Shown here: positions 9,524 to 45,195 of the stretch, piece by piece
Layout of the letters: the number at the start of each line of letters is the position of its first letter
Numbering within the stretch: position 1 is the first letter of the stretch
Notes under the pieces: model-generated
Seen by the model: the letters and a program-made list of their open reading frames with translations, nothing else
What the model was told of the DNA's origin: nothing
Databases searched by the model: none
Origin: an uncultured Alphaproteobacteria bacterium
Lineage (GTDB): Bacteria > Pseudomonadota > Alphaproteobacteria > Rhodobacterales > Rhodobacteraceae
Length of the DNA: 64,000 nt
Reading direction: 5' to 3'
Assembly (NCBI GenBank): GCA_902596605.1
Contig: CACJUU010000005.1
Span: forward strand, 1-64,000
Position numbers and translations under genes: made by a program

Positions 9524-10324
9524 CTAAAACGCTTTCTTAAACAAAGTGAAAAAATTTTTTGTAGTTTGAGTTCTAAAAAAGTCTTCGTCAACATCAAGAA
9601 CTTCTGCCCCCTTTTTAGCAATAAAGGAAACAAAAGCTGGTTCGTTAGATTTACCACGATGTGGAACAGGGGCTAAATATGGACTGTCAGTTTCAACTAA
9701 GACTTTATCTATCGGCACCTTTGCAAATATTTCTCTAAGATTTTGAGAATTTTTAAAAGTAATAATGCCAGACATTGAAAGATAAAAACCTAAGTCAATT
9801 ACCTCCTCTGCTAGATAGGAACCGGAAGAAAAGCAGTGCATAACACATTTAAAAGAACTTTTATGATATTGCTCAGATAAAATTTGCCCAATCTCTTTAT
9901 CTGCATTTCTTGCATGAATAATAACTGGTAGATCTGCTTCTTTAGCTACTTCAATATGTTGTATCAATGATTTTATTTGATCTTTTTTACTATCTCGAGA
10001 ATAGTGAAAATCTAAACCGGTTTCTCCCACTCCAATCATTTTTTTATGTGCACAAATCGATAGTAAATCGTCGCTGTTAAATTTTAGATCATCTGATGGT
10101 TGGTTAGGATGTACCCCCGTCGCAAAAAATATTTCTTCGAACCTTTCGCTTAAAGAAATGGTTTCACTTATTTCTCTATAGTTTGTCCCAATAGTTAACA
10201 TCTTATGTACGCCCTCAGACTTCGCCCTGCTCAGAACACCAGACATATCGTTGTTTAAAGTCCTGAAATCTAAATGACAATGGCTGTCAACTATAACTGA
10301 TGTATTATTTTTTGTATTTTCCAA
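9524..10324 (-). CDS. tatD: TatD family hydrolase
   Basis: TIM-barrel metal-dependent hydrolase of 266 residues; family members act as 3'-5' deoxyribonucleases or D-aminoacyl-tRNA deacylases. The metal ligands can be seen in order: DSHCHLD (His15, His17), GETGLDFHY (Glu near 98), IIHARNA (His near 134), MHCFSSG (His near 160) and ETDSPYLAP (Asp near 210). It overlaps the end of holB by about 20 bases and is followed 2 bases later by the MBL-fold gene, within the dac-tmk-holB string. In many relatives metG lies between holB and tatD; it is absent here. Confidence 0.9.
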   Translation of the reverse strand: MENTKNNTSVIVDSHCHLDFRTLNNDMSGVLSRAKSEGVHKMLTIGTNYREISETISLSERFEEIFFATGVHPNQPSDDLKFNSDDLLSICAHKKMIGVGETGLDFHYSRDSKKDQIKSLIQHIEVAKEADLPVIIHARNADKEIGQILSEQYHKSSFKCVMHCFSSGSYLAEEVIDLGFYLSMSGIITFKNSQNLREIFAKVPIDKVLVETDSPYLAPVPHRGKSNEPAFVSFIAKKGAEVLDVDEDFFRTQTTKNFFTLFKKAF

Positions 10325-11366
10325 AGGCCAAATCTATCATGTTTAGGGCTAGAAAGAGAACTTTTTTAGCTTCAACATTGTACTCCATTGCTTGATGTCT
10401 CAAAAGTGAAATTTGTGGATACAAATGAGCCGCTATAAGTTTGATCTCTTCCCTAACTGATTTATTTTCGACTAATAAATCGATTTCATTTTTTGCGAGA
10501 GATGCAAGTAACTTTAAGAGAACACCAAAAGCGGATTTATCAGGATCGTCGTTACCGAGGTATTCTTTGTTACCTGTTATCAATTTAATAGCTTTTCTTT
10601 TATTAAGGTCTGGTAGATCCAATAATAACTCCTTCATCCCATTAAAAAATTTTATATAATCTTTGTCTAGAAAGTTAAGAAGCTTTTTTATAGATCCATC
10701 GCAAGATTTCAGAGCACCAGTCCTCTTAAGCAGATCAAAGTAATTTTCTTCAAATAAGCCCACAGTTATATTCCGAAGGTCATCTTCACTCAATCTTTGA
10801 AAGCTAATTTTTTGACATCTGGAAAGAATGGTTGGCAGGATAGATTGCTTGTTGTTTGACACTAAAATGAATAGAGTATTTTTTGGTGGTTCTTCAAGCA
10901 TTTTTAATAGGGAATTTGATGCAGAAATGTTTAGATCTTCTGTCGTATCAACTATGCAGACTTTGTATGAGTAGTCAGCCGATGATAGATAGAATTTTCT
11001 TCCGAGTTCTCGTATATCCTCAATAGAAATATTTTTTTGAAAAAATTTCTTTTTGTCATCCCATTTTCTCTTGCAGAAGAAAATATTGGTTACTTGTAAG
11101 GAAGCATTTGGATTTCTTATATCTTTTTCAGAAAGATAACTCAGACTGTCTTTTTTGAACACGTTATTATTAGATAACACTTTTGCCACATTTAATGCAA
11201 GAGAAGCTTTACCAATCCCCACTGGTCCGTGAAAAAGCCACGCGTTAGGAATTTGGTTAGCCCTAATGCAATTAAGCAGAAAAGCTATCTGTTCTTTATG
11301 CCCAAAAAGAAAGGAATTTTTGTCATGTGACGGTACTGAAAACTTATGATTTTCTTTTTCTATCAT
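10305..11366 (-). CDS. holB: DNA polymerase III subunit delta prime
   Basis: Clamp-loader AAA+ subunit of 353 residues. The P-loop region GPVGIGKA is at 47-54; the helix with SNSLLKMLEEPP (about 150-161) is the hallmark of delta prime and tau subunits, and the SRC motif (LSRCQKISF) is near 186. The P-loop lysine is kept although delta prime usually does not hydrolyse ATP. The zinc-binding cysteines of E. coli HolB are absent, as in other Alphaproteobacteria. It sits 1 base downstream of tmk and overlaps tatD, in a typical alphaproteobacterial tmk-holB pair. Confidence 0.9.
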   Translation of the reverse strand: MIEKENHKFSVPSHDKNSFLFGHKEQIAFLLNCIRANQIPNAWLFHGPVGIGKASLALNVAKVLSNNNVFKKDSLSYLSEKDIRNPNASLQVTNIFFCKRKWDDKKKFFQKNISIEDIRELGRKFYLSSADYSYKVCIVDTTEDLNISASNSLLKMLEEPPKNTLFILVSNNKQSILPTILSRCQKISFQRLSEDDLRNITVGLFEENYFDLLKRTGALKSCDGSIKKLLNFLDKDYIKFFNGMKELLLDLPDLNKRKAIKLITGNKEYLGNDDPDKSAFGVLLKLLASLAKNEIDLLVENKSVREEIKLIAAHLYPQISLLRHQAMEYNVEAKKVLFLALNMIDLAFGKYKK

Positions 11367-30545: not shown

Positions 30546-31430
30546 ATGGAAGAGATCTTAAAAATTGTCTTCGACGTAGTGTCGTTTTCTTGCATAATGG
30601 TGTTAATTGTATCCGGTTTAGCAATCATAGCTAGCCTTATGGGAATATTTAACTTTGCTCACGGCGAATTTGTTCTTTTAGGTGCCTACGTAACTTTCCT
30701 TTTTCAAGCAATGGGACTACCGGTAGGTTTAGGTATGGTGTGTGCTCCCCTCTTTGTTGGAATGTTCGGCTTTTTGCTTGAAGTTTCTATAATAAGACGA
30801 TTTTATAACGCTACCATCGTAGCGATGCTTGCAACCTACGCGATCGGCTTGATCATTAGAGAGTTGACCAGAGGTGCCTTATCAGGGCGATTCTGGAAAG
30901 TTTCAGAGCCAATTCCGGGTCTTTTTCAAATAGGTGATATGAGTTTTTCCATATGGAGAGGTGTTATAATAATAATCACAATAATTGTAATGTATGGTTG
31001 TTACTATTTCCTCACAAAAACACTTTTTGGATTAAAAATAAGGGGAGCAATGGAAAACCCTTCCCTAGCCAGAGCAAGTGGAATTTCAACAACAAGATTG
31101 TATGCCTTTACTTTTGCGTTCGGAGCCGCTCTCGCAGGATTAGCAGGTGCTTTGATGGTACCCCTCTACACTCTATTTGCAGATCTTGGGTTACGCTTCC
31201 TTGTAATGGCATTTTTGTCGGTGATGCTGGGAGGCGTTGGTACCTTCGAGGGTCCCCTTCTTGGTAGTGCAATGATAGGTGCTATGGTTCCAGGCTTTCA
31301 ATGGATACGAGAGGCTCCTGTCATTGTCGATATTTTAAGCCCAATTTTTTCTGAGGTGCTTGTATTTATAGTGGCCATCATAATTGTTAAATTTAGACCT
31401 CAGGGATTAATAAAAAGAGGCAGAATATAA
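30546..31430 (+). CDS. urtB: Urea/short-chain amide ABC transporter permease (UrtB-like)
   Basis: Inner-membrane permease of 294 residues with about eight hydrophobic helices, of the branched-chain-amino-acid/urea (LivH/UrtB) type. It begins SGLAIIASLMGIFNFAHGEFVLLGAYV, a hallmark of the family, and has the late MLGGVGTFEGPLLGSAMIG region that contacts the ATPases. It lacks the extra N-terminal domain of some cyanobacterial UrtB. First gene of a co-directional series of twelve: permease, binding protein, permease, two ATPases, two amidases and six urease genes. The ATPase UrtD-like features downstream favour urea or a related amide over amino acids as cargo. Confidence 0.83.
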   Translation: MEEILKIVFDVVSFSCIMVLIVSGLAIIASLMGIFNFAHGEFVLLGAYVTFLFQAMGLPVGLGMVCAPLFVGMFGFLLEVSIIRRFYNATIVAMLATYAIGLIIRELTRGALSGRFWKVSEPIPGLFQIGDMSFSIWRGVIIIITIIVMYGCYYFLTKTLFGLKIRGAMENPSLARASGISTTRLYAFTFAFGAALAGLAGALMVPLYTLFADLGLRFLVMAFLSVMLGGVGTFEGPLLGSAMIGAMVPGFQWIREAPVIVDILSPIFSEVLVFIVAIIIVKFRPQGLIKRGRI

Positions 31431-31466
31431 AACGAGCACTTTTTTAATAATTAGAAAGGATAGAAA

Positions 31467-32699
31467 ATGAAACATAAAACTAGATTAACTAGTCGTTCAA
31501 CCGACAGACGGTCGTTTCTGTTTGGCTCGAGCGCTTTAGCAGCGGCAGGATGGGTTGCTGCTGGTACAGGTACTTTTGTGCTAAAACCCGAGTGGGGGTT
31601 AGCTGCAGATCCAATTAAGATGGGCATTGCAACAGATATCACTGGTGCTATTGCTGCCGGAGGGAACTCCTGCTGGCGAACAGCTCAATTTGCAGTTAAG
31701 CAGATAAACGATGCCGGTGGAATTTTGGGTAGACCCATTGAGCTCATACTAGAAGATACCGCATCAGATCCAGGTGTTGCCGTCGGTAATGTAAGACGTC
31801 TTATTCAACAAGCGAAAGTAGACGTTGTGTTTGGAGGTATTACTAGCGCGATGAGAGAGGCAATAAAAAATCCAATCGTAAAGAGAGGTAAAACATTGTA
31901 TCTCTACCCACAATTATATGAGGGCCAAGAGTGTACACAACACCTTTATTGTACCGGACCAACGCCTTTTCAACAGGTGTCAGAACTAATTCCCTATTTG
32001 ATTAAACAAGGTAATAAACGCTTTGCTATGCCATCTGCGAATTATCTCTGGCCACAGCTGCTCAATAAAGCAACAAAAAAAGTCATTGAAGCTAATGGCG
32101 GAGAAGTTGTTCTTGAAGAGTATTTTCCATTGGATCAAGTGGAGTATTCTGCAACCATAGGAAAGATTAAAAGTGAAAAAGTTGACCATGTGTTTCTTAC
32201 CATTATTCCACCTGGATTAGGGCCATTTGGTAAACAGCTTTTTGAATCAGGCTGGCAGAATGATGGTGGCACTATTTCTTGTGTATATTATGATGAAAAC
32301 TCTCCTTTCTACGTGGAACCTTATGCCTTGGAAGGTACATACAGTTGTCTTGACTATTTCCACACTGTAGACGATCCATTTAGTAATAAGCTTTTGGCGG
32401 ACTATAACGCTATGTGGGATGATAAGTTCCTTTTCACTGCTGGAGCCGCTGCTACTGGGATGTATCGGGCAATCAAGCTTTATGAACAAGGCGTTATAAA
32501 AACAAACGGAGACCTGAAACGAGAAGCTGTCTCTGAGGCTCTTGACGACATATCAGTGGCAAATGGACCAGGAGGTGGTTATAAAACTGTGCCGGGTACT
32601 GGGCATTGTGCGATGAACATGTACATAGCTCAGAATAACGGCGGGAAATGGGATATTATTTCCAGCTCAGATATGGTTCCTCCCAAAGAGTGCGGTTAA
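31467..32699 (+). CDS. urtA: Periplasmic substrate-binding protein, urea/amide type (UrtA-like)
   Basis: A 410-residue type I periplasmic binding protein. The N-terminus has a Tat signal (TDRRSFLFGSSALAAAG, about residues 12-28, with the twin arginine), so it is exported folded. The mature domain (from about 47) starts IKMGIATDITGAIAAGG and contains LYLYPQLYEGQECTQHLYCTG, which parallels the conserved Y-P-x-Q-Y-E-G-x-E-C segment of urea and short-amide receptors (UrtA/FmdD/AmiC family) rather than that of leucine-binding proteins. Position between two permease genes and before amidases and urease supports that assignment. A stem-loop follows its stop codon. Confidence 0.83.
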   Translation: MKHKTRLTSRSTDRRSFLFGSSALAAAGWVAAGTGTFVLKPEWGLAADPIKMGIATDITGAIAAGGNSCWRTAQFAVKQINDAGGILGRPIELILEDTASDPGVAVGNVRRLIQQAKVDVVFGGITSAMREAIKNPIVKRGKTLYLYPQLYEGQECTQHLYCTGPTPFQQVSELIPYLIKQGNKRFAMPSANYLWPQLLNKATKKVIEANGGEVVLEEYFPLDQVEYSATIGKIKSEKVDHVFLTIIPPGLGPFGKQLFESGWQNDGGTISCVYYDENSPFYVEPYALEGTYSCLDYFHTVDDPFSNKLLADYNAMWDDKFLFTAGAAATGMYRAIKLYEQGVIKTNGDLKREAVSEALDDISVANGPGGGYKTVPGTGHCAMNMYIAQNNGGKWDIISSSDMVPPKECG

Positions 32700-32707
32700 A
32701 TTAGTTT

Positions 32708-32735
32708 GGGATGATCCTTTAAAGAGGGTCATCCC
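32708..32735 (+). other. Stem-loop after the binding-protein gene
   Basis: GGGATGATCC (32708-32717) pairs with GGGTCATCCC (32726-32735) with one T-G wobble and an eight-base loop, starting 8 bases after the stop codon. No T tract follows, so it is more likely a 3' stabiliser or partial terminator that raises binding-protein expression over the downstream membrane genes, as is usual in binding-protein-dependent operons. Confidence 0.6.
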
Positions 32736-32763
32736 ACTCACCGATTAAACTTAGGAATTATTT

Positions 32764-33789
32764 ATGAAAGATAAAAAGGCAAATTTCAAAAGGCTACCGC
32801 TCCTTGAAGCAATAATTTTGGGTTTTCTTGTAGTTGCACCTCTGTTCCTTAGTGACTTTTACACTGTAATATTGACTCGGATGTTGATACTTTGCCTTCT
32901 CGCTATAAGTTTTGAACTCTGTTGGGGTTATTCTGGTATAATGACTTTTGGCCAAGGTTTATTCTTTGGAATGGCTGGATATGCGGTTGCATTGTTGGCA
33001 AACAAAGTTGGCTTTGTCCAAATATGGGGTGTGATTCCTATAGGGATATTCGTCGGAACTATAGTTTCATTTTTGCTGGCATGGTTGCTTTTGCTGGGGA
33101 AAAAAGCCCCAGAGATAATTTTTGTAGCCCTAGGAACATTAACCTTTTCATATGCAGCCGAGCGATTAGTTTCTGGTTGGTATTATGTCGGTGGAGGTAA
33201 CGGACTCTCAATATTTGAATTTCTTAGCTTTGGTAGTTATGAAATTGAACCAGGTGTGTTGTTCTATTATATAGCTGGCATTGCTCTCTTAGTTTCATAT
33301 CTCTTAAGTAGATACTTGGTTCGATCCCAGCTTGGTTTGGTGCTAGCAGCAATGAGGCAGGATGAAAAAAGATTATTATTTTTGGGATATAGAGTGCGAG
33401 GTTTTAAAGCACTTGTTTTTACTTTTGCAGGAGCTGTTGCTGGTCTTGGAGGTGCACTGTATGCTCATCATGAAGGATTTATCGGACCGAATAACATGGG
33501 AATTGGTATTTCTACCATGGCGGTTCTCTATACTCTTTTCGGTGGAGTTGGATCACTTATAGGACCTCTGATAGGTGTGTTTGCACTAGAGACAATATCT
33601 TTTACACTTTCAGGCGTCGATGCATTTAAAAGTTTTTGGCCAGTGATTCTTGGTGCAATATTGCTAGTCGTAGTAACATTTAAGCCTGACGGGCTGACAG
33701 GGTTTATCGTTTCGAGAAGAGAACGAATTGGGACTTTTGGGAGGATAGACAAAAAGGAAAAAAATGGTCGTAAAGAAACTAAGGACTGA
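32764..33789 (+). CDS. urtC: Urea/short-chain amide ABC transporter permease (UrtC-like)
   Basis: Second permease of the transporter, 341 residues, LivM/UrtC type with about nine to ten hydrophobic helices. Characteristic segments are SFELCWGYSGIMTFGQGLFFGMAGYAV (about 45-71) and, near the C-terminus, LYTLFGGVGSLIGPLIGVFALE, the ATPase-contact loop. The last 30 residues are basic and hydrophilic. It lies 6 bases upstream of the first ATPase gene. Together with the UrtB-like subunit it should form the transmembrane channel. Confidence 0.83.
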   Translation: MKDKKANFKRLPLLEAIILGFLVVAPLFLSDFYTVILTRMLILCLLAISFELCWGYSGIMTFGQGLFFGMAGYAVALLANKVGFVQIWGVIPIGIFVGTIVSFLLAWLLLLGKKAPEIIFVALGTLTFSYAAERLVSGWYYVGGGNGLSIFEFLSFGSYEIEPGVLFYYIAGIALLVSYLLSRYLVRSQLGLVLAAMRQDEKRLLFLGYRVRGFKALVFTFAGAVAGLGGALYAHHEGFIGPNNMGIGISTMAVLYTLFGGVGSLIGPLIGVFALETISFTLSGVDAFKSFWPVILGAILLVVVTFKPDGLTGFIVSRRERIGTFGRIDKKEKNGRKETKD

Positions 33790-33795
33790 TAAAAG

Positions 33796-34530
33796 ATGAC
33801 TATTTTAGCTATTGAAAATATTGGAAAACAATTTGGTTCTCTAAAAGCCCTAGATGGCATCGATATTAACGTAGAAAAAAACACGTTTCACGGATTAATT
33901 GGACCAAACGGATCCGGTAAAAGCACCTTATTAAAAGCGTTAGCAGGCGACCATTTCGCAGATCAAGGAACAATAACTTTCGACGGTATAGATATTACCC
34001 ACCAACCCCCTGAATATAGGGCATCCATCGGATTAAATTTTAAGTTTCAAATAACAGCTATTTTCCCAGAATTATCCGTTTATGATAATATTCTACTGTC
34101 AGTCCAATCAACCGCTTCAATTTGGGAATTAATTCGATCACGCTCTAGAGCATCTTTAAATGATAAAATTTTAGAGACCCTAGAACAGTTTCAACTTCTA
34201 GACAAGGCAGAAAGTCTAGCTGGAGAGTTAAGTCATGGGCAACAGCAGTGGTTAGAAATATCGATGTCCGTAATCCGTAAACCCAAACTACTGTTATTGG
34301 ATGAGCCAACCGGTGGTATGAGTCCCGAGGAGAGGAGGGCTACCGGGGAACTACTCTTACCTATCAGAAAAGAAACGACCCTAGTGATTGTTGAACATGA
34401 TTTAGAATGGATTAAAGACATTTGTGATAATTTGACGGTGCTAGACCAGGGTAAAGTTTTGGACTCTGGAACCGTAGATAAGATAGAAAAATCTAATAAA
34501 GTTAAAGAGGTATATACAACCCGTGTCTAA
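33796..34530 (+). CDS. urtD: ABC transporter ATP-binding protein (UrtD-like)
   Basis: A 244-residue ABC ATPase. Walker A is GPNGSGKST (about 36-44); the signature region reads LSHGQQQWLEI, the variant with SHGQ-x-QWLEI that marks UrtD rather than LivG; Walker B is LLLLDEPTGGM and the H-loop His is in VIVEHDLEWIK. Of the transporter genes this one gives the best sequence argument for a urea/amide system. It overlaps the second ATPase gene by 8 bases, implying coupled translation. Confidence 0.87.
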   Translation: MTILAIENIGKQFGSLKALDGIDINVEKNTFHGLIGPNGSGKSTLLKALAGDHFADQGTITFDGIDITHQPPEYRASIGLNFKFQITAIFPELSVYDNILLSVQSTASIWELIRSRSRASLNDKILETLEQFQLLDKAESLAGELSHGQQQWLEISMSVIRKPKLLLLDEPTGGMSPEERRATGELLLPIRKETTLVIVEHDLEWIKDICDNLTVLDQGKVLDSGTVDKIEKSNKVKEVYTTRV

Positions 34531-35230
34531 AAAAAACGTTAATTTGTTTCTCGAAAATATTGATGCTGGATATGGAATAAGCCAGGTTTTGTTCGATGTT
34601 TCGCTGGATAACTATGGAGGATCAATAGCCATTCTAGGTAGAAACGGCGCGGGTAAAAGTACACTGCTTAAAACGATTGCTGGTGAGATCACGCCCAACA
34701 ATGGGAAAATTATTTTTGACGGTAAAAACATAGCGAGCGTGACTACGGACGCTAGAGCACGTAGTGGGATGGCTTACGTGCCACAAGAGGACTCTGTTTT
34801 TCTAAAATTGTCTGTTGAAGAGAATCTACTGCTTGGAACTTCTTCAAGCAGCGATTATTCACCCTCAGATATGGAGATGGTACTTGATTTTTTCCCTAAA
34901 CTATCTCAAAGGCTGGATCAGCAAGCAGGCACATTATCCGGGGGAGAACGAAAAATGCTTGCCATCAGTAGAGCGCTCATTGCCAGACCAAAATTGATAA
35001 TGTTGGATGAACCAACTGAGGGAGTATGGATTGGTGTTATTGAAGAAATAGCGGATCGACTAAAACAGTTGTCAGAAGAGATTTCTATTGTATTAGTAGA
35101 GCAGCATATAGAGTTAGCGTTTGAGGTTTGTGATTATGTTTTTGTGATGGATAGAGGGAAAATACCTCTGAAAGGCAAATCAAAAGATGTAAAAAAGAGT
35201 TCTGAACTGATGCGGCATTTAGCACCGTAA
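34523..35230 (+). CDS. urtE: ABC transporter ATP-binding protein (UrtE-like)
   Basis: Second ATPase, 235 residues, LivF/UrtE type. Walker A GRNGAGKST is at about 37-45, the signature LSGGERKML near 140 and Walker B LIMLDEPTEG near 158, with the H-loop in IVLVEQHIELA. After DEPTEG it reads VWIGVI where UrtE proteins usually have IQPSI, a small deviation in a segment near the dimer interface. It completes a permease2/ATPase2/binding-protein set. The first amidase gene starts 18 bases downstream. Confidence 0.85.
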   Translation: MSKKNVNLFLENIDAGYGISQVLFDVSLDNYGGSIAILGRNGAGKSTLLKTIAGEITPNNGKIIFDGKNIASVTTDARARSGMAYVPQEDSVFLKLSVEENLLLGTSSSSDYSPSDMEMVLDFFPKLSQRLDQQAGTLSGGERKMLAISRALIARPKLIMLDEPTEGVWIGVIEEIADRLKQLSEEISIVLVEQHIELAFEVCDYVFVMDRGKIPLKGKSKDVKKSSELMRHLAP

Positions 35231-35248
35231 AATTTAAAGGAGGAAAAA

Positions 35249-36769
35249 ATGGCTGTACAATTACCAACAAAAGCACAAATTTTAGAGATTGCTGCAGAAG
35301 TCGGTCTTGACTTGAGTGAAGAGGATGTGAGTTCGTTTCAAGGTTTATTTCAGGGCAGTGTAGATGCTTATAATGCAGTTGATGAGATGCCCGATAATCT
35401 CCCAGAAGTTAAATATCCTAGAACACCTGGGTATAAGCCAAGAGGCGAGGAGAATAAATATAATGCGTGGCACGTAAAAACTACTGTTAATGGGAATTCG
35501 AGAGGAAAACTGAAGGGAAAGACAGTAGTTTTAAAGGATAACATAATGCTTGCTGGTGTGCCTATGATGAATGGCGCTTCTACCCTTGAAGGATATGTCC
35601 CGGATATAGATGCAACTGTGACCAATAGGCTTCTTGATGCTGGTGCAACAATAGTAGGCAAGGCGCACTGCGAGTTTTATTGTTTGTCAGGGGGAAGCCA
35701 TACGAGTGCCTCGGGTCCAGTTCATAATCCGCATAAAATGGGTTACATGGCCGGCGGTTCGTCCTCTGGAAGTGCAGCACTGGTTGCTGCTGAAGAGGTA
35801 GATATGGCTATGGGCGGAGACCAAGGCGGTTCTATAAGGATGCCCGCATCATATTGTGGTATCTATGGAATGAAACCAACACACGGATTAGTTCCTTATA
35901 CAGGAATTATGCCGATTGAAATTTATATCGATCATACTGGTCCTATGACAAACAATGTTGAGGATAACGCATTAATGTTAGAAGCTATAGCTGGCAGCGA
36001 TGGCTATGATCCTAGGCAATACAATGTAAAAACGCAAAAATACACGGATGCTTTGAAGGGTGTAGATGGCTTGAAAGGTATGAGAATTGCAGTGGTTAAA
36101 GAAGGGTTTGGACACGAAAATACAGAAAAAGATGTAGACCAAAAAGTTAAAGCAGCCTTAGACAAAATTAAGTCAATGGGTGCTATTGTGGAAGAAGTTT
36201 CGATACCCATGCATGCGTTAGGGCCGGCACTCTGGACGCCCATTGGAACAGAGGGTTTAACCCAAACTATGATGTGGGGTGACGGTTACGGCGTAAGTCG
36301 CCCCGATCTTTATGTTACCAGCCTAATGGATTTTCATAGGAACTGGAGGTCAAGAGCAAATGAGTTATCTGAAACTACGAAACTATTGACAATGTTTGGT
36401 ACCTACATAAGGAATTACTATGGAAGTAGGTACTATGGAAAAGCGATGAATCTTACGAGAATGCTAACAGCAGCCTATGATAAGGTGTTAGATAGCTACG
36501 ATTTGCTTGCCATGCCAACAACTGTTGTAAAATCTCAGCCTATACCAGCTCCGGATGCTAGTCGGGAAGAATATGTGCAAAGGGGGTTTGAAATGTTGGC
36601 TAACACTCAGGGCTTTGATATTACACATCATCCAGCTATGGCTCTACCTTGCGGTATGTCAGATGGGCTTCCTGTTAGTCTTCAGTTGGTAGGAAAACAT
36701 TTTAATGAGAGTACGATATACCAAGCAGCTCATGGATTTCAAGAAGGCACAGACTGGAAAAATATGTAA
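35249..36769 (+). CDS. Amidase, signature family (first of tandem pair)
   Basis: A 506-residue amidase-signature enzyme that hydrolyses R-CONH2 to acid and ammonia. The Ser-cisSer-Lys triad is complete: Lys96 (VVLKDN), Ser171 (GGSSSGS) and Ser195 (DQGGSIRMP), with the spacing of FAAH and malonamidase. The alpha-helical N-terminal extension of about 75 residues and the overall layout resemble the broad-range amidases found with nitrile hydratase in Rhodococcus; no nitrile hydratase is present here. A strong AAAGGAGG ribosome binding site precedes the ATG. It is followed 18 bases later by a close paralog and preceded by the transporter, so an imported amide is the probable substrate. Confidence 0.88.
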   Translation: MAVQLPTKAQILEIAAEVGLDLSEEDVSSFQGLFQGSVDAYNAVDEMPDNLPEVKYPRTPGYKPRGEENKYNAWHVKTTVNGNSRGKLKGKTVVLKDNIMLAGVPMMNGASTLEGYVPDIDATVTNRLLDAGATIVGKAHCEFYCLSGGSHTSASGPVHNPHKMGYMAGGSSSGSAALVAAEEVDMAMGGDQGGSIRMPASYCGIYGMKPTHGLVPYTGIMPIEIYIDHTGPMTNNVEDNALMLEAIAGSDGYDPRQYNVKTQKYTDALKGVDGLKGMRIAVVKEGFGHENTEKDVDQKVKAALDKIKSMGAIVEEVSIPMHALGPALWTPIGTEGLTQTMMWGDGYGVSRPDLYVTSLMDFHRNWRSRANELSETTKLLTMFGTYIRNYYGSRYYGKAMNLTRMLTAAYDKVLDSYDLLAMPTTVVKSQPIPAPDASREEYVQRGFEMLANTQGFDITHHPAMALPCGMSDGLPVSLQLVGKHFNESTIYQAAHGFQEGTDWKNM

Positions 36770-36787
36770 GTGTAATAGGGCAACGTT

Positions 36788-38314
36788 ATGGTGATTAAGT
36801 TACCAAATACTTGGGATATAAAAGCTATCTCAGAGGAAATTGGTTTGGACCTAGAAGAAGAGGAAATTCTCGAATATATAGAGCTTATGGGTCCCACTAT
36901 CGAGTCCTACAATTTCATTGATACAGTCCCTGATAATATACCGTCAGTGAAATACAGCAGAACACCTGGTTATAAACCTAGAGGAGAAGAAAATAAATAC
37001 AATGCGTGGCACGTAAAAACTACGGTGAATGGTAATTCTAGAGGAAAACTTGTTGGCAAAAAAGTTGTTTTAAAAGATAATGTAATGCTGGCAGGAGTTC
37101 CCTTTATGAATGGATCAGCCACTCTTGAAGGCTACCAGCCCGATATGGATGCTACGATTGTGACGAGATTGCTTGATGCGGGTGCTACCATAGTTGGTAA
37201 AGCACATTGTGAAAATTTTTGCTTCTCATGCGGTAGCCATACCAATTCAACAGGACCTTGCCATAATCCACATAAAATGGGTTATATGGCAGGGGGATCT
37301 TCTTCAGGAAGCGCTGTATTAGTGGCTGCTGGTGAAGCTGATATGGCTATTGGAGGAGATCAGGGTGGATCAATTAGAATGCCAGCTTCTTGGTGCGGTA
37401 TCTATGGTATGAAACCTACTCATGGATTGGTTCCTTATACTGGAATTATGCCTATCGAAATTACGGTAGATCATGCTGGCCCAATGACAAGTAATGTTGA
37501 AGACAATGCGCTAATGCTTGAAGTTATTGCAGGGTCGGACGGACTTGATCCAAGACAAATTGATATAAAAACCCACAAATATACAAAGTCGTTATTAGGA
37601 AAAAATGGGTTAGAGAATTTAAGAATTGGAGTTGTAAAAGAAGGCTTTCAGCAAGAAGGGTATGAAGATGATGTGAACTTTAAGGTACGAAGTGCTCTTA
37701 ATCATTTTAAAGAAGCTGGTGCCGTCGTAGAAGAGGTATCTATTCCACTTCATTTAAAGGCTCCAGCACTTCTTGCCCCCATATATTTTGAAGGGGGGAC
37801 TCAGACTATGATGTATGGTGATGGTTATGGTGTAAGCAGGTCTGACCTCTATTCTACTAGCCTGATGGACTTTCATAGAAATTGGAGAACTAGGGCAAAT
37901 GAGCTCCCAGCAACAGTCAAATTGGTTACCCTTTTGGGAACTTATATTAGGAAAAAACACGGAAGTAGATATTTTGGGAAATCTATAAATTTAATTCGAA
38001 TGTTGCGTTCAGCATATGATGAAAAACTTTCAAGTTATAATTTACTAGTAATGCCCACAACTGCTGCGAAGGCACAAGCTATTCCCAATGCTGGAGCGAG
38101 TATCACGGAAGTTATTCAGTCAGCTTTGCCCTTATATTTAAATGGAAACACCCAGCCATTTAATGCGACTCACCATCCAGCAATGGCAGTGCCGTGCGGA
38201 ATGTCCGCGGGATTACCTGTAAGCCTTATGCTTATTGGCAAGCATTTTGATGAACCAACGATCTACAGAGCAGCACACGCTTTTCAAGAGACAATTGATT
38301 GGAGGTCAATTTAA
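36788..38314 (+). CDS. Amidase, signature family (second of tandem pair)
   Basis: A 508-residue paralog of the preceding amidase; long blocks are identical (for example KPRGEENKYNAWHVK) while the N-terminal helices and the region after about 230 differ more. The catalytic Lys96, Ser171 and Ser195 are all kept. Substrate-pocket neighbours vary: ENFCFSCGSHTNSTG here against EFYCLSGGSHTSASG in the first copy. The pair most likely arose by tandem duplication and may have split substrate range. ureE begins 22 bases downstream, linking amide hydrolysis and the urease genes in one transcript. Confidence 0.88.
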   Translation: MVIKLPNTWDIKAISEEIGLDLEEEEILEYIELMGPTIESYNFIDTVPDNIPSVKYSRTPGYKPRGEENKYNAWHVKTTVNGNSRGKLVGKKVVLKDNVMLAGVPFMNGSATLEGYQPDMDATIVTRLLDAGATIVGKAHCENFCFSCGSHTNSTGPCHNPHKMGYMAGGSSSGSAVLVAAGEADMAIGGDQGGSIRMPASWCGIYGMKPTHGLVPYTGIMPIEITVDHAGPMTSNVEDNALMLEVIAGSDGLDPRQIDIKTHKYTKSLLGKNGLENLRIGVVKEGFQQEGYEDDVNFKVRSALNHFKEAGAVVEEVSIPLHLKAPALLAPIYFEGGTQTMMYGDGYGVSRSDLYSTSLMDFHRNWRTRANELPATVKLVTLLGTYIRKKHGSRYFGKSINLIRMLRSAYDEKLSSYNLLVMPTTAAKAQAIPNAGASITEVIQSALPLYLNGNTQPFNATHHPAMAVPCGMSAGLPVSLMLIGKHFDEPTIYRAAHAFQETIDWRSI

Positions 38315-38336: not shown

Positions 38337-38792
38337 ATGATTTTCGAAAAAATATTGGGAAACGAGAGCGACGAATTATTCTCCGAAAAGCTTCATCAAC
38401 TTTCTCATAGGTCATTGGTAGATTACATTGAAATAAAGGCAGAAGATTCCTTTAGACGAAGGATGAGGATGGTTTCAATTGATGGAAGAGAATACAAGCT
38501 TGCTATCCCAAGATCGCAGAAGATTGAAAATGGATCTATTCTATGGTTATCAGAAGATTTCGCAGTTGTTATCAGAATACTTAATGGTCCAAAACTTCGG
38601 GTAATACCCAAGAATATGACATCGGCAGTAAGGTTAGGGTATCATTGCGGAAATTTACATTGGAAAACAAACTTTATCCAAGGAGGTATAGAGATCATTC
38701 TCACCGGTGAGAGTCAAAACTACTATGATAGGCTAAAGACATTAGAAGAATTTGCTGATTTTGAAGTGGAATATTTAGAAAATGACAATTGA
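38337..38792 (+). CDS. ureE: Urease accessory protein UreE (nickel carrier)
   Basis: A 151-residue UreE that delivers nickel during urease assembly. The N-terminal peptide-binding domain contains RRRMRMVSIDGREYKLAIPR, and the C-terminal metal domain has GYHCGNLHW, matching the conserved YHLGNRH segment whose His binds nickel at the dimer interface; the Arg is replaced by Leu. The C-terminus is acidic and lacks the His-rich tail of enterobacterial UreE. It overlaps ureF by 11 bases. First of six urease genes in the order E-F-AB-C-G-D, which differs from the common D-A-B-C-E-F-G order. Confidence 0.8.
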   Translation: MIFEKILGNESDELFSEKLHQLSHRSLVDYIEIKAEDSFRRRMRMVSIDGREYKLAIPRSQKIENGSILWLSEDFAVVIRILNGPKLRVIPKNMTSAVRLGYHCGNLHWKTNFIQGGIEIILTGESQNYYDRLKTLEEFADFEVEYLENDN

Positions 38793-39438
38793 TTTTTTAA
38801 GGTCACTTCAACTTGCAGATAGTGGGTTCCCAACAGGAAATTTTGGTTATTCCTGGGGTTTAGAAACCGCAGTTTACAAAGGGTTGCTAACAAAAAGTAA
38901 TTTTTCACTATGGTTAGAAAGTGAAATGTTAGATAGATGGGCCTTCTTTGATCGCATAATATTGTCTGAATCTTGGAGTAAAAATATTCACAATTTCCTG
39001 TTATGGGAGAAAAAAATAGATAAATTTTTTTGGTCAAAAAAACAAAAAAAGGACTCTATCGGTGCTGGTCGCGTCTATTTAGAGAGTCTTAATCGGTTTG
39101 ACTCAAAAAAGTCATCGGACTTATTGAAAATGTTAAACGGAAATAAGATTTATGGACATTTATCTGCGTTACAAGGAATTATATATAAAAGGATGGGTTT
39201 TTCAAGATATGAAACTACGCTAATAGGTGCCCATGTTAATTCACAATCTTTAATATCTGCAGCGGTAAGATTAAATATTGTTTCATCTATGAGCGGACAA
39301 ATTTACTATTCTGAGTTGATACCGAAATTAGCAGATCTTTGTTCAAGAAACTGTTGTGAAGATGATATCGGCGGCTTTTTCCCAAGTGGAGAAATAGCGT
39401 TGCTAAATTTTAAACCTAATTCTTTGTTTGTTAATTAA
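38782..39438 (+). CDS. ureF: Urease accessory protein UreF
   Basis: A 218-residue all-helical assembly factor that joins UreD and UreG on the apo-urease and helps gate GTP hydrolysis. The N-terminal SLQLADSGFPTGNFGYSWGLETAV corresponds to the family signature LLQL-x-S-x-x-x-P-x-G-x-F-x-Y-S-x-G-L-E. The rest is shorter and more diverged than in classical UreF but keeps the GAGRVYLES and AAVRLNIVSSM segments. It overlaps ureE by 11 bases and is followed by ureAB after 9 bases. Confidence 0.8.
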   Translation: MTIDFLRSLQLADSGFPTGNFGYSWGLETAVYKGLLTKSNFSLWLESEMLDRWAFFDRIILSESWSKNIHNFLLWEKKIDKFFWSKKQKKDSIGAGRVYLESLNRFDSKKSSDLLKMLNGNKIYGHLSALQGIIYKRMGFSRYETTLIGAHVNSQSLISAAVRLNIVSSMSGQIYYSELIPKLADLCSRNCCEDDIGGFFPSGEIALLNFKPNSLFVN

Positions 39439-39447
39439 GGAGTAATT

Positions 39448-40137
39448 ATGAATTTAACACCTACTGAAATGGAACGGCTGACAATATTTACGGTTGCTGA
39501 GTTAGCACGGCGGTATAAAAAGCATGGTGTAAAGCTCAGCATGCCAGAGGCACAAGCGCTTATTGCGGATGAAATATTATTAGGTGCAAGACAGGGAATG
39601 TCTCACTCGGAGCTTGTAACCTATGGTAGTAACATCTTGACTGCTGAAAATGTTGAGGAAGGAGTAGCAAACCTAATAAGGTCAATCTCAATTGAAGTAT
39701 CACTTAAAGAGGGTACAAAATTAGTAACAATATTTGATCCTATTGAACCAGATAATGCAGAAAAGATTCCAGGTCAAATTTACTGTGCGAAGGGAGATGT
39801 TGAGTTAAACAAAAATAGAAAAATTATAAAATTAAAAGTGATTAATGCTGGAGATCGATCTATTCAAGTAAGATCTCATGCCCACTTTTTCGAGGTTAAT
39901 AGAGTGCTGTTATTTGACAGAGAAAAGGCTTTCGGTATGAGATTAGATAGGCCTTCTGGGGGAGGGGAACGCTTTGATCCAGGTATAGAAAAAGAGGTAT
40001 CCTTGGTCGCTTATGGAGGAAATAAGTTTGTAGAAGGCTTTTCGGGTTTGACACGAGGACATTTGAGTAAGACTGATGTGAAAAAAAAGGCGCTACAGAG
40101 AGCAAAGGAAAACCATTTTATCGCCGAGAAGAAATAA
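39448..40137 (+). CDS. ureAB: Fused urease gamma and beta subunits
   Basis: A 229-residue fusion. Residues 1-100 are a UreA-type gamma subunit (MNLTPTEMERLTIFTVAELA..., MPEAQALIADEILLGARQG, ending GTKLVTIFDPI). Residues about 106-229 are a UreB-type beta subunit (KIPGQIYCAKGDVEL, GDRSIQVRSHAHFFEVN, FDPGIEKEVSLVAYGG), plus a lysine-rich tail of about 20 residues. A fused gamma-beta chain is known from Helicobacter; Alphaproteobacteria usually have separate ureA and ureB. The ATG has a good GGAG-type site in TTAAGGAGTAATT. Its stop overlaps the ureC start by 1 base. Confidence 0.88.
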   Translation: MNLTPTEMERLTIFTVAELARRYKKHGVKLSMPEAQALIADEILLGARQGMSHSELVTYGSNILTAENVEEGVANLIRSISIEVSLKEGTKLVTIFDPIEPDNAEKIPGQIYCAKGDVELNKNRKIIKLKVINAGDRSIQVRSHAHFFEVNRVLLFDREKAFGMRLDRPSGGGERFDPGIEKEVSLVAYGGNKFVEGFSGLTRGHLSKTDVKKKALQRAKENHFIAEKK

Positions 40138-41840
40138 TGAAGATATCAAGAGAACAATATGCCTCCTTTTATGGCCCCACCACAGGTGATGTTTTTCGTC
40201 TAGGGGATACCTCACTGCTTGCAGAAGTTGAAAAAGATTTTGCATACTATGGTGACGAATTGACAACGGGTGCTGGTAAAAACATGAGAGACGGTGAAGG
40301 ATTTCGTCCAAGTGGAACAGATAAATCAGGCGCTTTAGATTTAGTTGTTCAAAACGCTGTAATAATTGATCCAATATTAGGCATTATAAAGGGAGATATA
40401 GGAGTAAGAAGAGGTAAGATTGTCGATATCGGGAAGGCAGGTAATCCCGACATTATGGATTCTGTTAACAAAAATTTGGTCACTGGTCCAAATACTACAG
40501 TTATCCATGGTGACAATATGATAATAACACCAGGAATAGTAGAAGCACATTCACATTTTCTTTCTCCACAACAAACATGGCATGCACTTGCTGGTGGTTG
40601 TACCACAATGATAGGTATGAGCCCTGGTCCACATTTTGATGTCAGTTGCTCCGGTCCGTTTACATTAGGAAAACTAATTCAAGCGGCAGACGAGTTTCCT
40701 ATTAATTTTGGTTTCTTGGGTAGAGGTTCATCTAATCCGTCAGCTGTTGAAGAGAGTGTTGGAGGTGGCGCTCTTGGAGTGAAAATTCATGAAGATTTTG
40801 GTGCATCAGGAGCAGTGATTGATGGGTGTTTGATTGCAGCTGATAACAATGATTTTTCCGTACATATCCATACTGACACAATAAATGAATTTGGGTTTTA
40901 TCAAGACACGATGAAGGCAATTAAAGATCGAACAATTCATATGTACCATACTGAAGGAGCAGGTGGGGGACACGCACCTGATATCTTAGCAGTCAACGGT
41001 TGGGAAAATGTAATTCCATCTTCAACAAACCCAACCAACCCCTTTACGGCGGCGGCTCTTGAAGAAGGAGTGCCCATGACGATGCTCGCGCATATGATGA
41101 GTTATGAGTTACCAGAAGACGTCTCTTTTGCAGAGTGTAGAATACGTCCCCAGACTATGGCAGCAGAAGATATCCTGCATGATATGGGAGCCATTTCCAT
41201 ATTTGCAACGGATACTCAGGGAATGGGACGACTTGCAGAAAATGGAACAAAAGCCTTTCAATTGGCTTCCGTTATGAAAGATCATTTTGGAAGGTTTAAA
41301 GAAGAAAAAACTGCTAATGCTGATAATGAAAGGATCTTACGTTACATCGCAAAGCTTACAATAAATCCGTCTATTGCAGCAGGTATTTCTGATTATGTTG
41401 GTTCTATTAGTCCAGGAAAATATGCAGACTTTGTGATTTGGCGAAGAGATCATTTTATGGCAAAACCTGAACAAGTAGTTAAGTGTGGAGAAATAGTATG
41501 GTCAAAAATGGGTGACGGAAACGGAAGCTTTATAGGGACAGAACCATTGATCCAGAGACCTATGTGGGGCGCCATTGGGCGTTCAAAATCGGAAAACGGT
41601 TTTACCTTCGTAAGTAAGTTAGCAATCGAAAATGCAGTATTTGACAAGTTGGATGTAAAAAAGAAGTTTTTACCGATCAAATCGGTTCGCACGCTGAGAA
41701 AAACAGATATGATTCGTAATAATGCAACGCCATCAATAGAAATTGATAGCAATACATTTGAGGTGAGAGCTGATGGCCGTTTATTGAATTCTCCACCAGC
41801 GAAGAGAGTCCCCTTAAATAGAAGTTATTTTGTCAGATGA
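40137..41840 (+). CDS. ureC: Urease alpha subunit (catalytic), with altered pocket residues
   Basis: A 567-residue nickel amidohydrolase matching urease alpha along its whole length. Nickel ligands are intact: His138 and His140 (EAHSH), carbamylated Lys216 and His218 (GVKIHED), His245 (HIHTDT), His271 ([13 protein letters not shown]) and Asp359 (ATDTQ). The mobile flap, normally MVCHHL, reads MLAHMM: the catalytic His319 stays but the flap Cys is Ala318 and the next His is Met320. The pocket loop GTGPA is SPGPH (Ala to His166) and SQAMGR is TQGMGR (Ala to Gly362). By-eye alignment with K. aerogenes UreC from memory. It is an active urease or an enzyme for a related compound. Confidence 0.87.
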
Positions 41841-42442
41841 CAGCGGCTAGAATAGGAATAGGTGGTCCTGTTGGATCCGGAAAGACTGCTTTAATAGAGC
41901 AACTATTAGATAATTTTAAAAAAAAATCAATTAGCGTTGCGGTAATAACAAACGATTTAGTAACAGATGAGGATGCGCTGAGGATAAAAAAAAGTGGAAA
42001 ATTAACAGAAGATAGAGTGGTTGCTGTTCAAGCGGGAGCTTGTCCACATACCGTTATAAGAGAGGATCCGAGCTTGAACATTAGCGCTGCTGATAAACTG
42101 GAAAAAAAATTCCCAGATTTAAAAGCTATTATAATTGAAAGTGGTGGTGATAACCTTGCGTCAACATTTTCCCTAGATCTAGTAGACTGGTGGATGTTTG
42201 TGATTGACGTTGCAGGGGGTGATGATATTCCAAGAAAAAATGGACCCGGTGTTTTAAATTGTGATTTATTAGTGATAAATAAAATTGATCTTGCCCCACA
42301 CGTTGGGGTTAATCTTAAAGATATGCTTTTAGACGCAAAGTCAGTAAGGCAGGGTAAGAAAGTTATTAGCTCAAATTGCAAAACTGGTAAAGGAGTTGAT
42401 GACTTGTTTTCTATAATTGAAAAAGAGGTAATTTTTGAGTAA
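41837..42442 (+). CDS. ureG: Urease accessory GTPase UreG
   Basis: A 201-residue SIMIBI-class GTPase that couples GTP hydrolysis to nickel insertion. P-loop GPVGSGKT is at residues 9-16; the nickel-binding Cys-Pro-His motif is in [13 protein letters not shown] (near 70), and the guanine-specificity motif NKID is near 150. [12 protein letters not shown] is the usual Mg/switch region. It overlaps ureC by 4 bases and ureD by 8 bases. It is the best-conserved accessory protein in this operon. Confidence 0.93.
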
Positions 42443-43253
42443 ACATACTGACCAAATTAAACAAGAAAGTAAATTTGTCTTCAATATTGAGATTGAGAAA
42501 AACAATCACAACAAGTTCAAGCTAATAAAAAAGAAAGTTACCTTCCCTTGGTCTTTGGGACGAGGTTATGAGCAAAAAAGTGGTATAAATTGTGTTCGGA
42601 TATTGCCTCAGGTAGCTGGAGCCGGATTAATGTCTGGGGATAACTTTTTTCAAAGAGTTTATTTAGGAAAAGATGCGAGAGCCAAGGTACAGGACTCGGG
42701 TTCCATGATTGTTCTTTCAGGACAGAAGGGTCCCGCGTCAACCCATTGGGAATATACGGTTGATGAAGGCGGTGTATTAATTCTTGATTCTGAGCCTTAT
42801 TGCCTTTTAGACAATGCGAGGTGCGAAGTTTATAATACCTTTTATCTATCTGATAGTGCGACAGTAATAGCTCTTGATGGTTTCTGTCATTCAAAAAATT
42901 TAGTGGAAAAATTTGGATTCTATAAAAACGAAACCAAGGTTAAGTCTTTAGATGGGAAATTAATTTTAATAGATCGACAAAAAGCGTTAGCTGACTCTCT
43001 ACATCGTCTTTCAAAATATGTTGAAAAGGGGTCAGGAGCAGTCGGAACAATAAATATTTTTGCCGTGAAAAAGATAAGTGAAAACCTGATGGTAGTTGTT
43101 GATGACCTAGATATTCCTCATGCAAGAGCAGCGTTCAATGGCATATCTGGATTTTCTATACGGCTGCTGGCTCCATCTGGAGGACAACTTCGTAATGTCA
43201 CAAAACACGTTTTATACCAGTTCGAAAAAAAACTGAAAGAGCTAGTAGCTTGA
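42435..43253 (+). CDS. ureD: Urease accessory protein UreD
   Basis: A 272-residue assembly scaffold that binds apo-urease and channels nickel with UreF and UreG. The [17 protein letters not shown] segment matches the family GGLVGGD pattern, followed by a beta-rich core ([41 protein letters not shown]) and a C-terminal YLRARAAF-like region ([12 protein letters not shown]). It is more divergent than UreG and UreC. Placing ureD last is unusual, since it is often first. The gene is convergent with the copper amine oxidase, 16 bases apart. Confidence 0.8.
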
Positions 43254-43269: not shown

Positions 43270-45195
43270 TTAACTATCTTTAACAGAGCAACTAGCTTTA
43301 TTTTTTTGCGCTGCAAGATCTATTGAGGGGTTTCTATCAAAAAAACCAACTGGCATAAGTTTAAAGCCTGTCTTCACTACAGGTTGAACAGGATAATCCT
43401 CCAATCGTGGTAAATGATGAAGCCCAAAAACATGCCAGGCAACTAGATCTTCATCTTTGATACTTCTCTTCTGTTTAACAAATGAAGGTAATCCATCATC
43501 AGATTTTGATCCATTAACAAATTCTCCCGCCGGATATCTTTCTTCCCTATCAAATACAGTTACCCATAATGAGTTAAAAATAAACTTCATACGCGATCCA
43601 GAAGGCCCGTTTGGATCATGAAATGATGCTATACTGCCTGTTGGTTCAAGCTTGTAAGAGGTATTGTTTCCCATTTTGTTTTTTTTTGTCTCACTTACAA
43701 ACTTCCAGTATCTTTGCTTTTCTGGATTGCGTTTGAAACCTCCCTCAACCTTGAGTGCTTTCTCTTGGACATAGAAAGCGTTGCCAAAAGGGTTTAATTC
43801 TGATGAGGTCTCTTGTTCCGTGTCACATTGATAAAGTGAATTTTTTTTGCCATCGACTGCCATATCTAATCTAGCACAGAAAATATGTTGATGGATCTGA
43901 CCAACAACTCCCGGGGCTACTTCTGTTCCATATTTATCACCAGAGTGGGGTATGCAGCCAACTGTATTAATTACTCCAGTAGCTTTCATTTCAAATTCAA
44001 TTTCTCCATCAAGATAAAGATACCAGTATGAAGCATAATCATAATTTCCTACTGTTGAAATAGACGAAATCACAAGACGCCTTCCTCTTCTGATTTCAGT
44101 GCTATCAAGTCTAAAATCATAGTGCTTCCACAACAAGCCATGGTCTTCTTCATGAATGCATATTCCATTCTTTATTTTCATTGGATTTCCATTTGTGTCT
44201 GCTATCCAACAATCCATGTAGTAAATCGATCCCAAACAGTCACAACCTAGCTCTAGAGAATTTGCTAGTTTTCCAATTCCGTATTCACCGATATCAAAAA
44301 CATTTTTTCTTGCATGAGTTTTATTAGGGCTTCCATAGGGTACTACCATTTCTGCAATCGATGCTCTGTAACATATTGATCTATTATCGTAACAGACATT
44401 GTGAAGGGTTAATCCTTCTCTGGAATTGAAACCGACTACTAGGGACCACTTATCCCATAGAAGTTTCCCATCTATAAACTCAAAAGATACACCGGAAGGC
44501 TGATTAATATTTATTTGTTTCAGATTATCTCGTGGATTTTTTTCAAATTCAGGAATGTAGTTTCCTGGGGTTTTGGGAATAGGAATATCGCCCACATCAA
44601 TAACTTCAATAACCTTTAAAGTTTTTATGTCGACTGTAGCATTTAAACCCTCAATTGGATGTGCATATTGATGATCTGTTGGACTATTTCGTACCCAAGC
44701 AAATATATGGCTTATATGTCTACCTTTCTCATCTTCAGAGGCAACAAAACCTGCTGACCAGGCATCCACGCACACCAAGTCCAAATCAACAATACCCCTT
44801 CTTTTACATCCTTTAATGAAGCGGGGGTCGGTCTTTACAGCGTTTTCAATATCTAAAAACTCCTCCAGCTGGATCATTGGTTGTGCATCAGAATATTTCT
44901 CTTCTGAGATAACTCTTTCTTCAGAAATAGATACCTTGATAACATGAACTCCGATTTTGCCTTCTTTGAAAATATTTACTCTTGCAGCTCGCGATATTTG
45001 CATGCCTTTCTTAAAATTCAGTACAAAAGATTTCTCCGGTTCCTCGAGTTGAATTGTTTCAAAAAATATTTTTTCACGCGATTCCGCAAAATAATTTTTT
45101 ACAATCTTAGAGGCAGTATAAATTTCTTCCTCTGTCAAAGGATTAAGAGGATGCTCAATTGACTTTATTTTGTCTGGTTCTACTAGCTGATCCAT
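43270..45195 (-). CDS. Copper amine oxidase (TPQ-dependent)
   Basis: A 641-residue copper amine oxidase that converts primary amines to aldehydes, ammonia and hydrogen peroxide. The topaquinone precursor is Tyr385 in STVGNYDY, the catalytic base is Asp301 in FDIGEYG, and the copper histidines are in QIHQHIFCARLD and the later WHVFGLHHLPR. The small N2/N3 domains occupy about residues 20-220. No signal peptide is visible, so it is probably cytoplasmic, like Arthrobacter enzymes. It ends 16 bases from ureD in opposite orientation; it could add amine nitrogen to the same ammonia pool (inference). Confidence 0.92.
   Translation of the reverse strand: MDQLVEPDKIKSIEHPLNPLTEEEIYTASKIVKNYFAESREKIFFETIQLEEPEKSFVLNFKKGMQISRAARVNIFKEGKIGVHVIKVSISEERVISEEKYSDAQPMIQLEEFLDIENAVKTDPRFIKGCKRRGIVDLDLVCVDAWSAGFVASEDEKGRHISHIFAWVRNSPTDHQYAHPIEGLNATVDIKTLKVIEVIDVGDIPIPKTPGNYIPEFEKNPRDNLKQININQPSGVSFEFIDGKLLWDKWSLVVGFNSREGLTLHNVCYDNRSICYRASIAEMVVPYGSPNKTHARKNVFDIGEYGIGKLANSLELGCDCLGSIYYMDCWIADTNGNPMKIKNGICIHEEDHGLLWKHYDFRLDSTEIRRGRRLVISSISTVGNYDYASYWYLYLDGEIEFEMKATGVINTVGCIPHSGDKYGTEVAPGVVGQIHQHIFCARLDMAVDGKKNSLYQCDTEQETSSELNPFGNAFYVQEKALKVEGGFKRNPEKQRYWKFVSETKKNKMGNNTSYKLEPTGSIASFHDPNGPSGSRMKFIFNSLWVTVFDREERYPAGEFVNGSKSDDGLPSFVKQKRSIKDEDLVAWHVFGLHHLPRLEDYPVQPVVKTGFKLMPVGFFDRNPSIDLAAQKNKASCSVKDS

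Follow-up and report, generated by a model that had tools for sequence, protein, structure and literature searches.

A stretch of 64,000 nucleotides from an uncultured alphaproteobacterium of the Rhodobacteraceae (GCA_902596605.1, contig CACJUU010000005.1, positions 1–64,000), hereafter the window, carries at 38337–43253 a complete ureE-F-AB(fused)-C-G-D urease operon on a single strand. To our knowledge, urease is generally treated as having a single physiological substrate. We propose, at a probability of roughly 45%, that this operon encodes a nickel enzyme that would hydrolyse substituted ureas (or related carbamoyl or amide compounds) and release ammonia and a primary amine. Read at the level of sequence, the system has a complete maturation set, an intact di-nickel site with its catalytic residues, a rebuilt pocket, a clade of its own and an ordinary urease in the same genome. 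At slightly less than even odds, the clade would be the first urease-fold nickel enzyme with a physiological substrate other than urea, acting in an unrecognised pathway that leads from ureido or amide compounds to ammonia and a primary amine, and further UreC clades (the SLGP type described below, and others) would point to a superfamily built on the urease fold with diverse substrates. An earlier sequence-only reading had described a complete operon at this place, and its open reading frames and coordinates are as it gave them; all six genes are matched by Pfam.

The variant UreC (40137–41840, + strand; PF00449 and PF01979) resembles the ureases of Klebsiella (1FWH/2KAU), Sporosarcina pasteurii and jack bean (EC 3.5.1.5) in its fold (Z about 52, rmsd 1.7), its six metal ligands and residues H219, D221, H320 and R336, and the operon has the subunit plan and the UreEFGD maturation set of ordinary urease. 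Residues are given in Klebsiella numbering and were compared over 140 UreC rows, which include 70 clade members and 46 ordinary ureases. Every one of the 140 rows retains H134, H136, K217, H219, D221, H246, H272, G277, H320, R336 and D360; in the window UreC the metal ligands (H134, H136, K217, H246, H272 and D360) are intact and H219, D221, H320 and R336 are retained, which bears out the sequence-only reading on the nickel ligands and the flap histidine. The same reading had also pointed to an altered pocket loop, a MLAHMM flap and TQGMGR in place of SQAMGR. The residues that it quoted are right, and to these we add the shortening of the loop and the changes at 253, 312 and 314. Between Klebsiella positions 158 and 175 the loop (window UreC residues 162–175, 40620–40661) has 14 residues in 70/70 clade members vs. 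18 in 46/46 ordinary ureases, i.e., it is four residues shorter; it replaces GTGPAxGTxATTCT in the window UreC and reads F[DE], with Asp or Glu, in every clade member. Ser253 has become Phe or Tyr in 69 of the 70 (NEFGF in the window, 40884–40898), and H312 is Gly and D314 Pro in the same proportion. The flap (41061–41099) reads MLAHMM for MVCHHL with the catalytic histidine kept; across the clade, Ala occupies position 319 in 43 members and Cys does so in 22, and most members have Gln, Met, Val, Ile or Ala in place of H321. Finally, Ala363 is Gly throughout the clade and Ala in all 46 ordinary ureases (TDTQGMGR, 41208–41231). The window UreC thus lacks the pocket and flap features that are constant in the ordinary ureases, namely the 18-residue loop, H312, D314, H321 and A363.

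In S. pasteurii urease the carbonyls of Ala170 and Ala366, equivalent to 167 and 363, form hydrogen bonds to both nitrogens of urea, and C322 and H323, in the numbering of that enzyme, are part of its flap (PMC7433671). Since these alanines bind urea and the flap closes over it, the rebuilt parts are those that hold and cover the nitrogens. As far as the alignment tells, this rebuilding has spared the metal site and the flap lock D221-H320-R336. An AlphaFold model of the window UreC (mean pLDDT 87.2) superposes on jack bean urease (7kns) with Z 52.9 and an rmsd of 1.7 over 561 residues. The least confident part of the model is the remodelled loop, where the block mean is 57; the flap, at 71–74, is of moderate confidence, and for this reason we claim no geometry for these parts. 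The exact alignment of the loop to Ala167 is ambiguous as well, two alignments placing the Asp/Glu residue differently.

The variant is a new subfamily within a known enzyme family. When 117 UreCs were placed in a tree (IQ-TREE with a mixture model and quick search), the 56 that have the F[DE] loop fell on a single branch, with an SH-aLRT of 99; the sequences were gathered with patterns taken from the clade itself, so the share of motif variants outside the clade lies beyond the scope of the tree. The branch stands apart from the ordinary clade that holds the Klebsiella and jack bean ureases and from the second urease of the same genome, and a third clade, the SLGP type, is separate from both. 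The sequence-only reading had named beforehand, as one result that would speak against it, a place for UreC inside a characterised urease clade; the window UreC does not group there. Because the pattern is common to 70 sequences, ureC has a dN/dS of about 0.04, indicating strong purifying selection, and the clade has this branch support, we regard it as beyond chance. The clade is spread over many genera of Rhodobacterales, Hyphomicrobiales and other orders; records from Frankia (L079) and from a Klebsiella metagenome-assembled genome (MAG; L100) may be mislabelled or contaminated, and in our judgement carry no taxonomic weight. In an even class-wide draw of 385 genomes the scores fell into separate groups: four genomes were clear carriers, with at least 140 bits, one was intermediate at 113, and no other exceeded 101. 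Against the urease equivalog model TIGR01792 the window UreC scores 701 bits where the cut-off is 680 and ordinary ureases reach about 970, and it is because the cut-off is narrowly exceeded that databases label the clade as urease. Searches of the open-licence literature on non-canonical, divergent and paralogous ureases and on alkylurea hydrolases found no description of the clade. One carrier, Paracoccus ravus (L071), has an in-frame TAG in ureC.

Carriers of the variant nearly always have another urease. A whole-genome search found a second UreC in the window genome (1.97 Mb, 84% complete) at C1:34516-36210, 53% identical to the window UreC, with GTGPAHGTLATTCTPGPW, MVCHHL and SQAMGR and with its own UreD, A, B, F and G. 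Since this one is an ordinary urease, the window copy is an extra system and not the housekeeping one. At least one further UreC occurs in 46/49 carrier genomes, a proportion that carries no p-value because baseline urease prevalence in the same orders is not part of the comparison; the other three carriers are Herbiconiux and two MAGs. Among the roughly 22 carrier genomes whose extra copies were typed, all had an ordinary-type copy except Mesorhizobium Root552, whose three other UreCs are all of unusual types. In the class-wide draw 114/385 genomes had any UreC-like match, and a second UreC was present in 4/4 clear carriers.

The clade is also linked to amidases. Counting only loci flanked by 6 kb or more on both sides, we find an amidase, FmdA-like or asparaginase-like gene within 8 kb in 44/55 clade loci, as against 0/24 for ordinary ureases and 1/10 for the SLGP type (clade vs. 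ordinary, Fisher p 4e-12, a value inflated by kinship among the loci). The link is found in many genera and in several arrangements. In some loci a Liv-type transporter accompanies a PRK07235 amidase, and an ABM-domain gene is often present as well; in others an Opp-type transporter goes with FmdA-like and asparaginase-like genes; in others still, different amidases lie downstream of the operon or flank it. Genes like RutB or biuret hydrolase are near some clade loci. In the window, the genes directly 5′ of ureE (30546–38314), on the same strand and with small gaps, encode an ABC transporter of UrtA/AmiC type (five genes) followed by a pair of paralogous amidases. UrtBC-like permeases beside amidases have been argued to carry amides, not urea (Selengut et al., PMC3098086).

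Directly 3′ of ureD, on the opposite strand and convergent, is a copper (primary-)amine oxidase (43270–45195; NF008559, 815 bits, cut-off 651) with the NYDY topaquinone (TPQ) site and the copper HxH motif, whose best match in the Protein Data Bank (PDB) is phenylethylamine oxidase. In a congener, G009, the locus runs from the neighbour gene through transporter, amidase 1 and amidase 2, and then, after 102 bp, to a homologue of the 45321–46295 gene; what is missing is exactly ureEFABCGD and the amine oxidase. The transporter and amidases are therefore independent of the ure block. Among 22 genomes of the genus the variant UreC is present in three, and the amine oxidase is found in all three of these and in none of the other 19 (Fisher p 6e-4, with many of the genomes incomplete); the G012 locus is arranged differently, with about 12 kb between ureC and the amine oxidase. 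From the absence in G009 and this co-occurrence it follows that in this genus the amine oxidase and the ure operon behave like a single functional unit. The history of the genes is uneven. Between G000 and G012 the ordinary ureC has a dS of 0.28 and 98% identity, and the variant ureC is synonymously saturated at 81% identity; in the comparison of G000 with another congener, G013, dS is 0.3–0.4 for the ure genes, and parts of the transporter are saturated. These patterns suggest a mobile, mosaic cassette that was acquired more than once. By comparison with G013, the second permease and both ATPases of the window (32764–35230) have diverged much more than the ure genes, which points to recombination within the cassette.

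The substrate would most likely be an N-substituted urea or a closely related carbamoyl or amide compound. The neighbouring ABC transporter of amide/urea type could take it up, the pair of amidases would free nitrogen from amide groups, and the nickel enzyme would split the ureido group into ammonia, carbon dioxide and a primary amine, from which the adjoining copper amine oxidase, in the window lineage, would take the last nitrogen. The changes sit in the mobile flap and in the Ala167/Ala363 region, as would be expected if a substituent on one urea nitrogen needs room; likewise, the last member of the block consumes primary amines, which would fit a nickel enzyme that releases one, as in the hydrolysis of N-substituted urea. 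Work on jack bean urease has included formamide, acetamide and N-methylurea, to judge from the title of a 1980 paper by Dixon that PMC7433671 cites. The suggestion of the sequence-only reading that the enzyme serves another ureido or amide compound is partly borne out: the separate clade, the co-resident urease, the wide amidase linkage and the amine oxidase block strengthen it, and it stands as a well-supported hypothesis in which the substrate itself is a candidate.

Several findings weigh against a substrate other than urea. The window UreC still passes the TIGR01792 cut-off, and its sequence would be compatible with residual or even normal urea activity; the change of Cys319 to Ala is by itself compatible with urea hydrolysis. 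The transporter is related to urea transporters too, 11 of the 55 clade loci have no amidase within 8 kb, and G009 keeps the transporter and both amidases without the ure block. Outside the genus, an amine oxidase homologue is present in 25/49 carriers and is not adjacent to ureC, so that the link is limited to the genus. The main rival, which we regard as rather unlikely, is a true urease with altered kinetics, pH range or regulation that would clear intracellular urea arising from the amidases or from co-located carbamoyl hydrolases, the pocket tuning its affinity. Such an enzyme would be expected to keep every catalytic residue, to pass the equivalog cut-off and to have a transporter of urea/amide type beside it, as is the case; however, nearly all carriers already possess another urease, positions invariant in 46 ordinary ureases are altered across 70 members, and the linked amine oxidase plays no part in urea hydrolysis.

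A nickel amidase for small aliphatic amides such as formamide or acetamide, working in parallel to the amidases, would suit the linkage to amidases and FmdA-like genes and the study of jack bean urease with both amides, as far as the title cited above goes, but we hold it improbable because the same operon already has two dedicated amidases, a seven-gene nickel system would be wasteful for a reaction that they can do, and the amine oxidase would be left unexplained. The F[DE] of the loop, common to all clade members, could instead bind a positive charge and so point to a nickel enzyme for a guanidino or other cationic carbamoyl compound; with the position of that residue relative to Ala167 uncertain (the alignments disagree and model confidence is low) and no guanidine genes noted nearby, the chance of this seems slim. 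That the operon occurs in just 3 of 22 genomes of the genus and that its accessory proteins diverge fast might indicate a decaying or inactive urease copy, yet the frames are open and the catalytic residues are invariant in 70 members from many genera; decay is very improbable, and we rejected it on the dN/dS of ureC and on residue conservation. If a hydrolase of substituted ureas is the true answer, counts of ureC in metagenomes overstate the use of urea, sea and soil have a hidden route for organic nitrogen, and new specificity can evolve on the urease fold, so that the basis of urease specificity becomes testable by comparison.

The other genes of the operon, all on the + strand, overlap or are separated by gaps of 9 bp or less. 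They are ureE, a nickel chaperone (38337–38792; PF02814; NF009752 at 115 bits, under the cut-off of 162), ureF (38782–39438; PF01730), ureAB for fused gamma and beta subunits (39448–40137; PF00547 and PF00699; NF009671 at 285 bits, cut-off 243), ureG, a GTPase with its P-loop (41837–42442; TIGR00101 at 233 bits, cut-off 204) and ureD (42435–43253; PF01774). The maturation proteins UreD, UreE, UreF and UreG are thus all present by Pfam. In NCBIfam, UreG passes TIGR00101, UreE stays under every cut-off, and UreF and UreD are without a match, in agreement with the sequence-only reading, which had taken UreE, UreF and UreD to be more diverged than UreG. The viral contigs searched contain no relative.

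The transporter, likewise on the + strand, shares the five-gene layout and homology of Urt/Fmd-type ABC transporters for urea and short-chain amides but falls under every Urt cut-off tried, the curated cut-offs of UrtA, UrtB and UrtC included. It consists of a permease of UrtB/LivH type (30546–31430; PF02653; best NCBIfam match TIGR03409 UrtB, 171 bits, cut-off 250), a substrate-binding protein of UrtA/AmiC type (31467–32699; PF13458; UrtA TIGR03407, 211 bits, cut-off 493) whose PDB relatives include urea-binding proteins and AmiC, the best match being 8TG1, a permease of UrtC/LivM type (32764–33789; TIGR03408 UrtC, 158 bits, cut-off 296), and two ATPases, of UrtD/LivG type (33796–34530) and UrtE/LivF type (34523–35230), open reading frames that are syntenic in G013, G012 and G009. 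Amidase 1 (35249–36769, + strand) belongs to the amidase-signature family PRK07235 (NF005565, 789 bits, cut-off 545), has the motifs VLKDN, GGSSSGS and GGDQGGS, and has 3a1k, entry name “Amidase”, as its closest solved relative; its paralogue, amidase 2 (36788–38314, + strand; PF01425), has the same family motifs. G012 has two more amidase copies 3′ of its variant ure operon (L187:4157-5665 and 9625-11136), about 76% identical to amidase 1 of the window, and one whole-genome match contained a stop codon. Two other congeners, G016 (L188:3936-6314) and G015 (L189:8122-10500), have an ABC ATPase apparently fused to a PRK07235-type amidase in a 792-residue frame, adjoining other transporter genes and an acyl-CoA-ligase-like gene; the fusion may be a direct physical link between amide uptake and hydrolysis. 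Near the variant ure operon of Acuticoccus is a gene like hydantoinase or the caprolactamase alpha subunit (L092:2834-4918).

A second, non-standard urease beside an ordinary one is also known from Helicobacter mustelae (UreA2B2, 3QGA), which by its entry title is unlike the variant in being iron-containing. UreCs of the SLGP type, annotated as urease on Aminobacter pMET1 and on an Acinetobacter plasmid, share with the variant A363G, a shortened loop, fused AB and the ureEFABCGD order, but keep the MVCHHL flap, H312 and D314, form their own clade and, as counted above, have an amidase near just one of ten loci. Members of this type (L033, L034, L126–L133 and L165) have the loop SLGPITVGID, the flap MVCHHL and SQGMGR. 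On the two plasmids they are linked to UrtA-like transporters and to ANTAR-domain/binding-protein regulators, and the Acinetobacter locus is also beside glxC/glutamate-synthase-like genes. Other UreC paralogues (L110, L112, L119, L138, L139, L144, L145 and L147) have unusual loops and flaps with all metal ligands kept, a paralogue from Kineococcus has EFGPVWGVGVNSPW with MSVHGL, and some genomes hold four UreC types.

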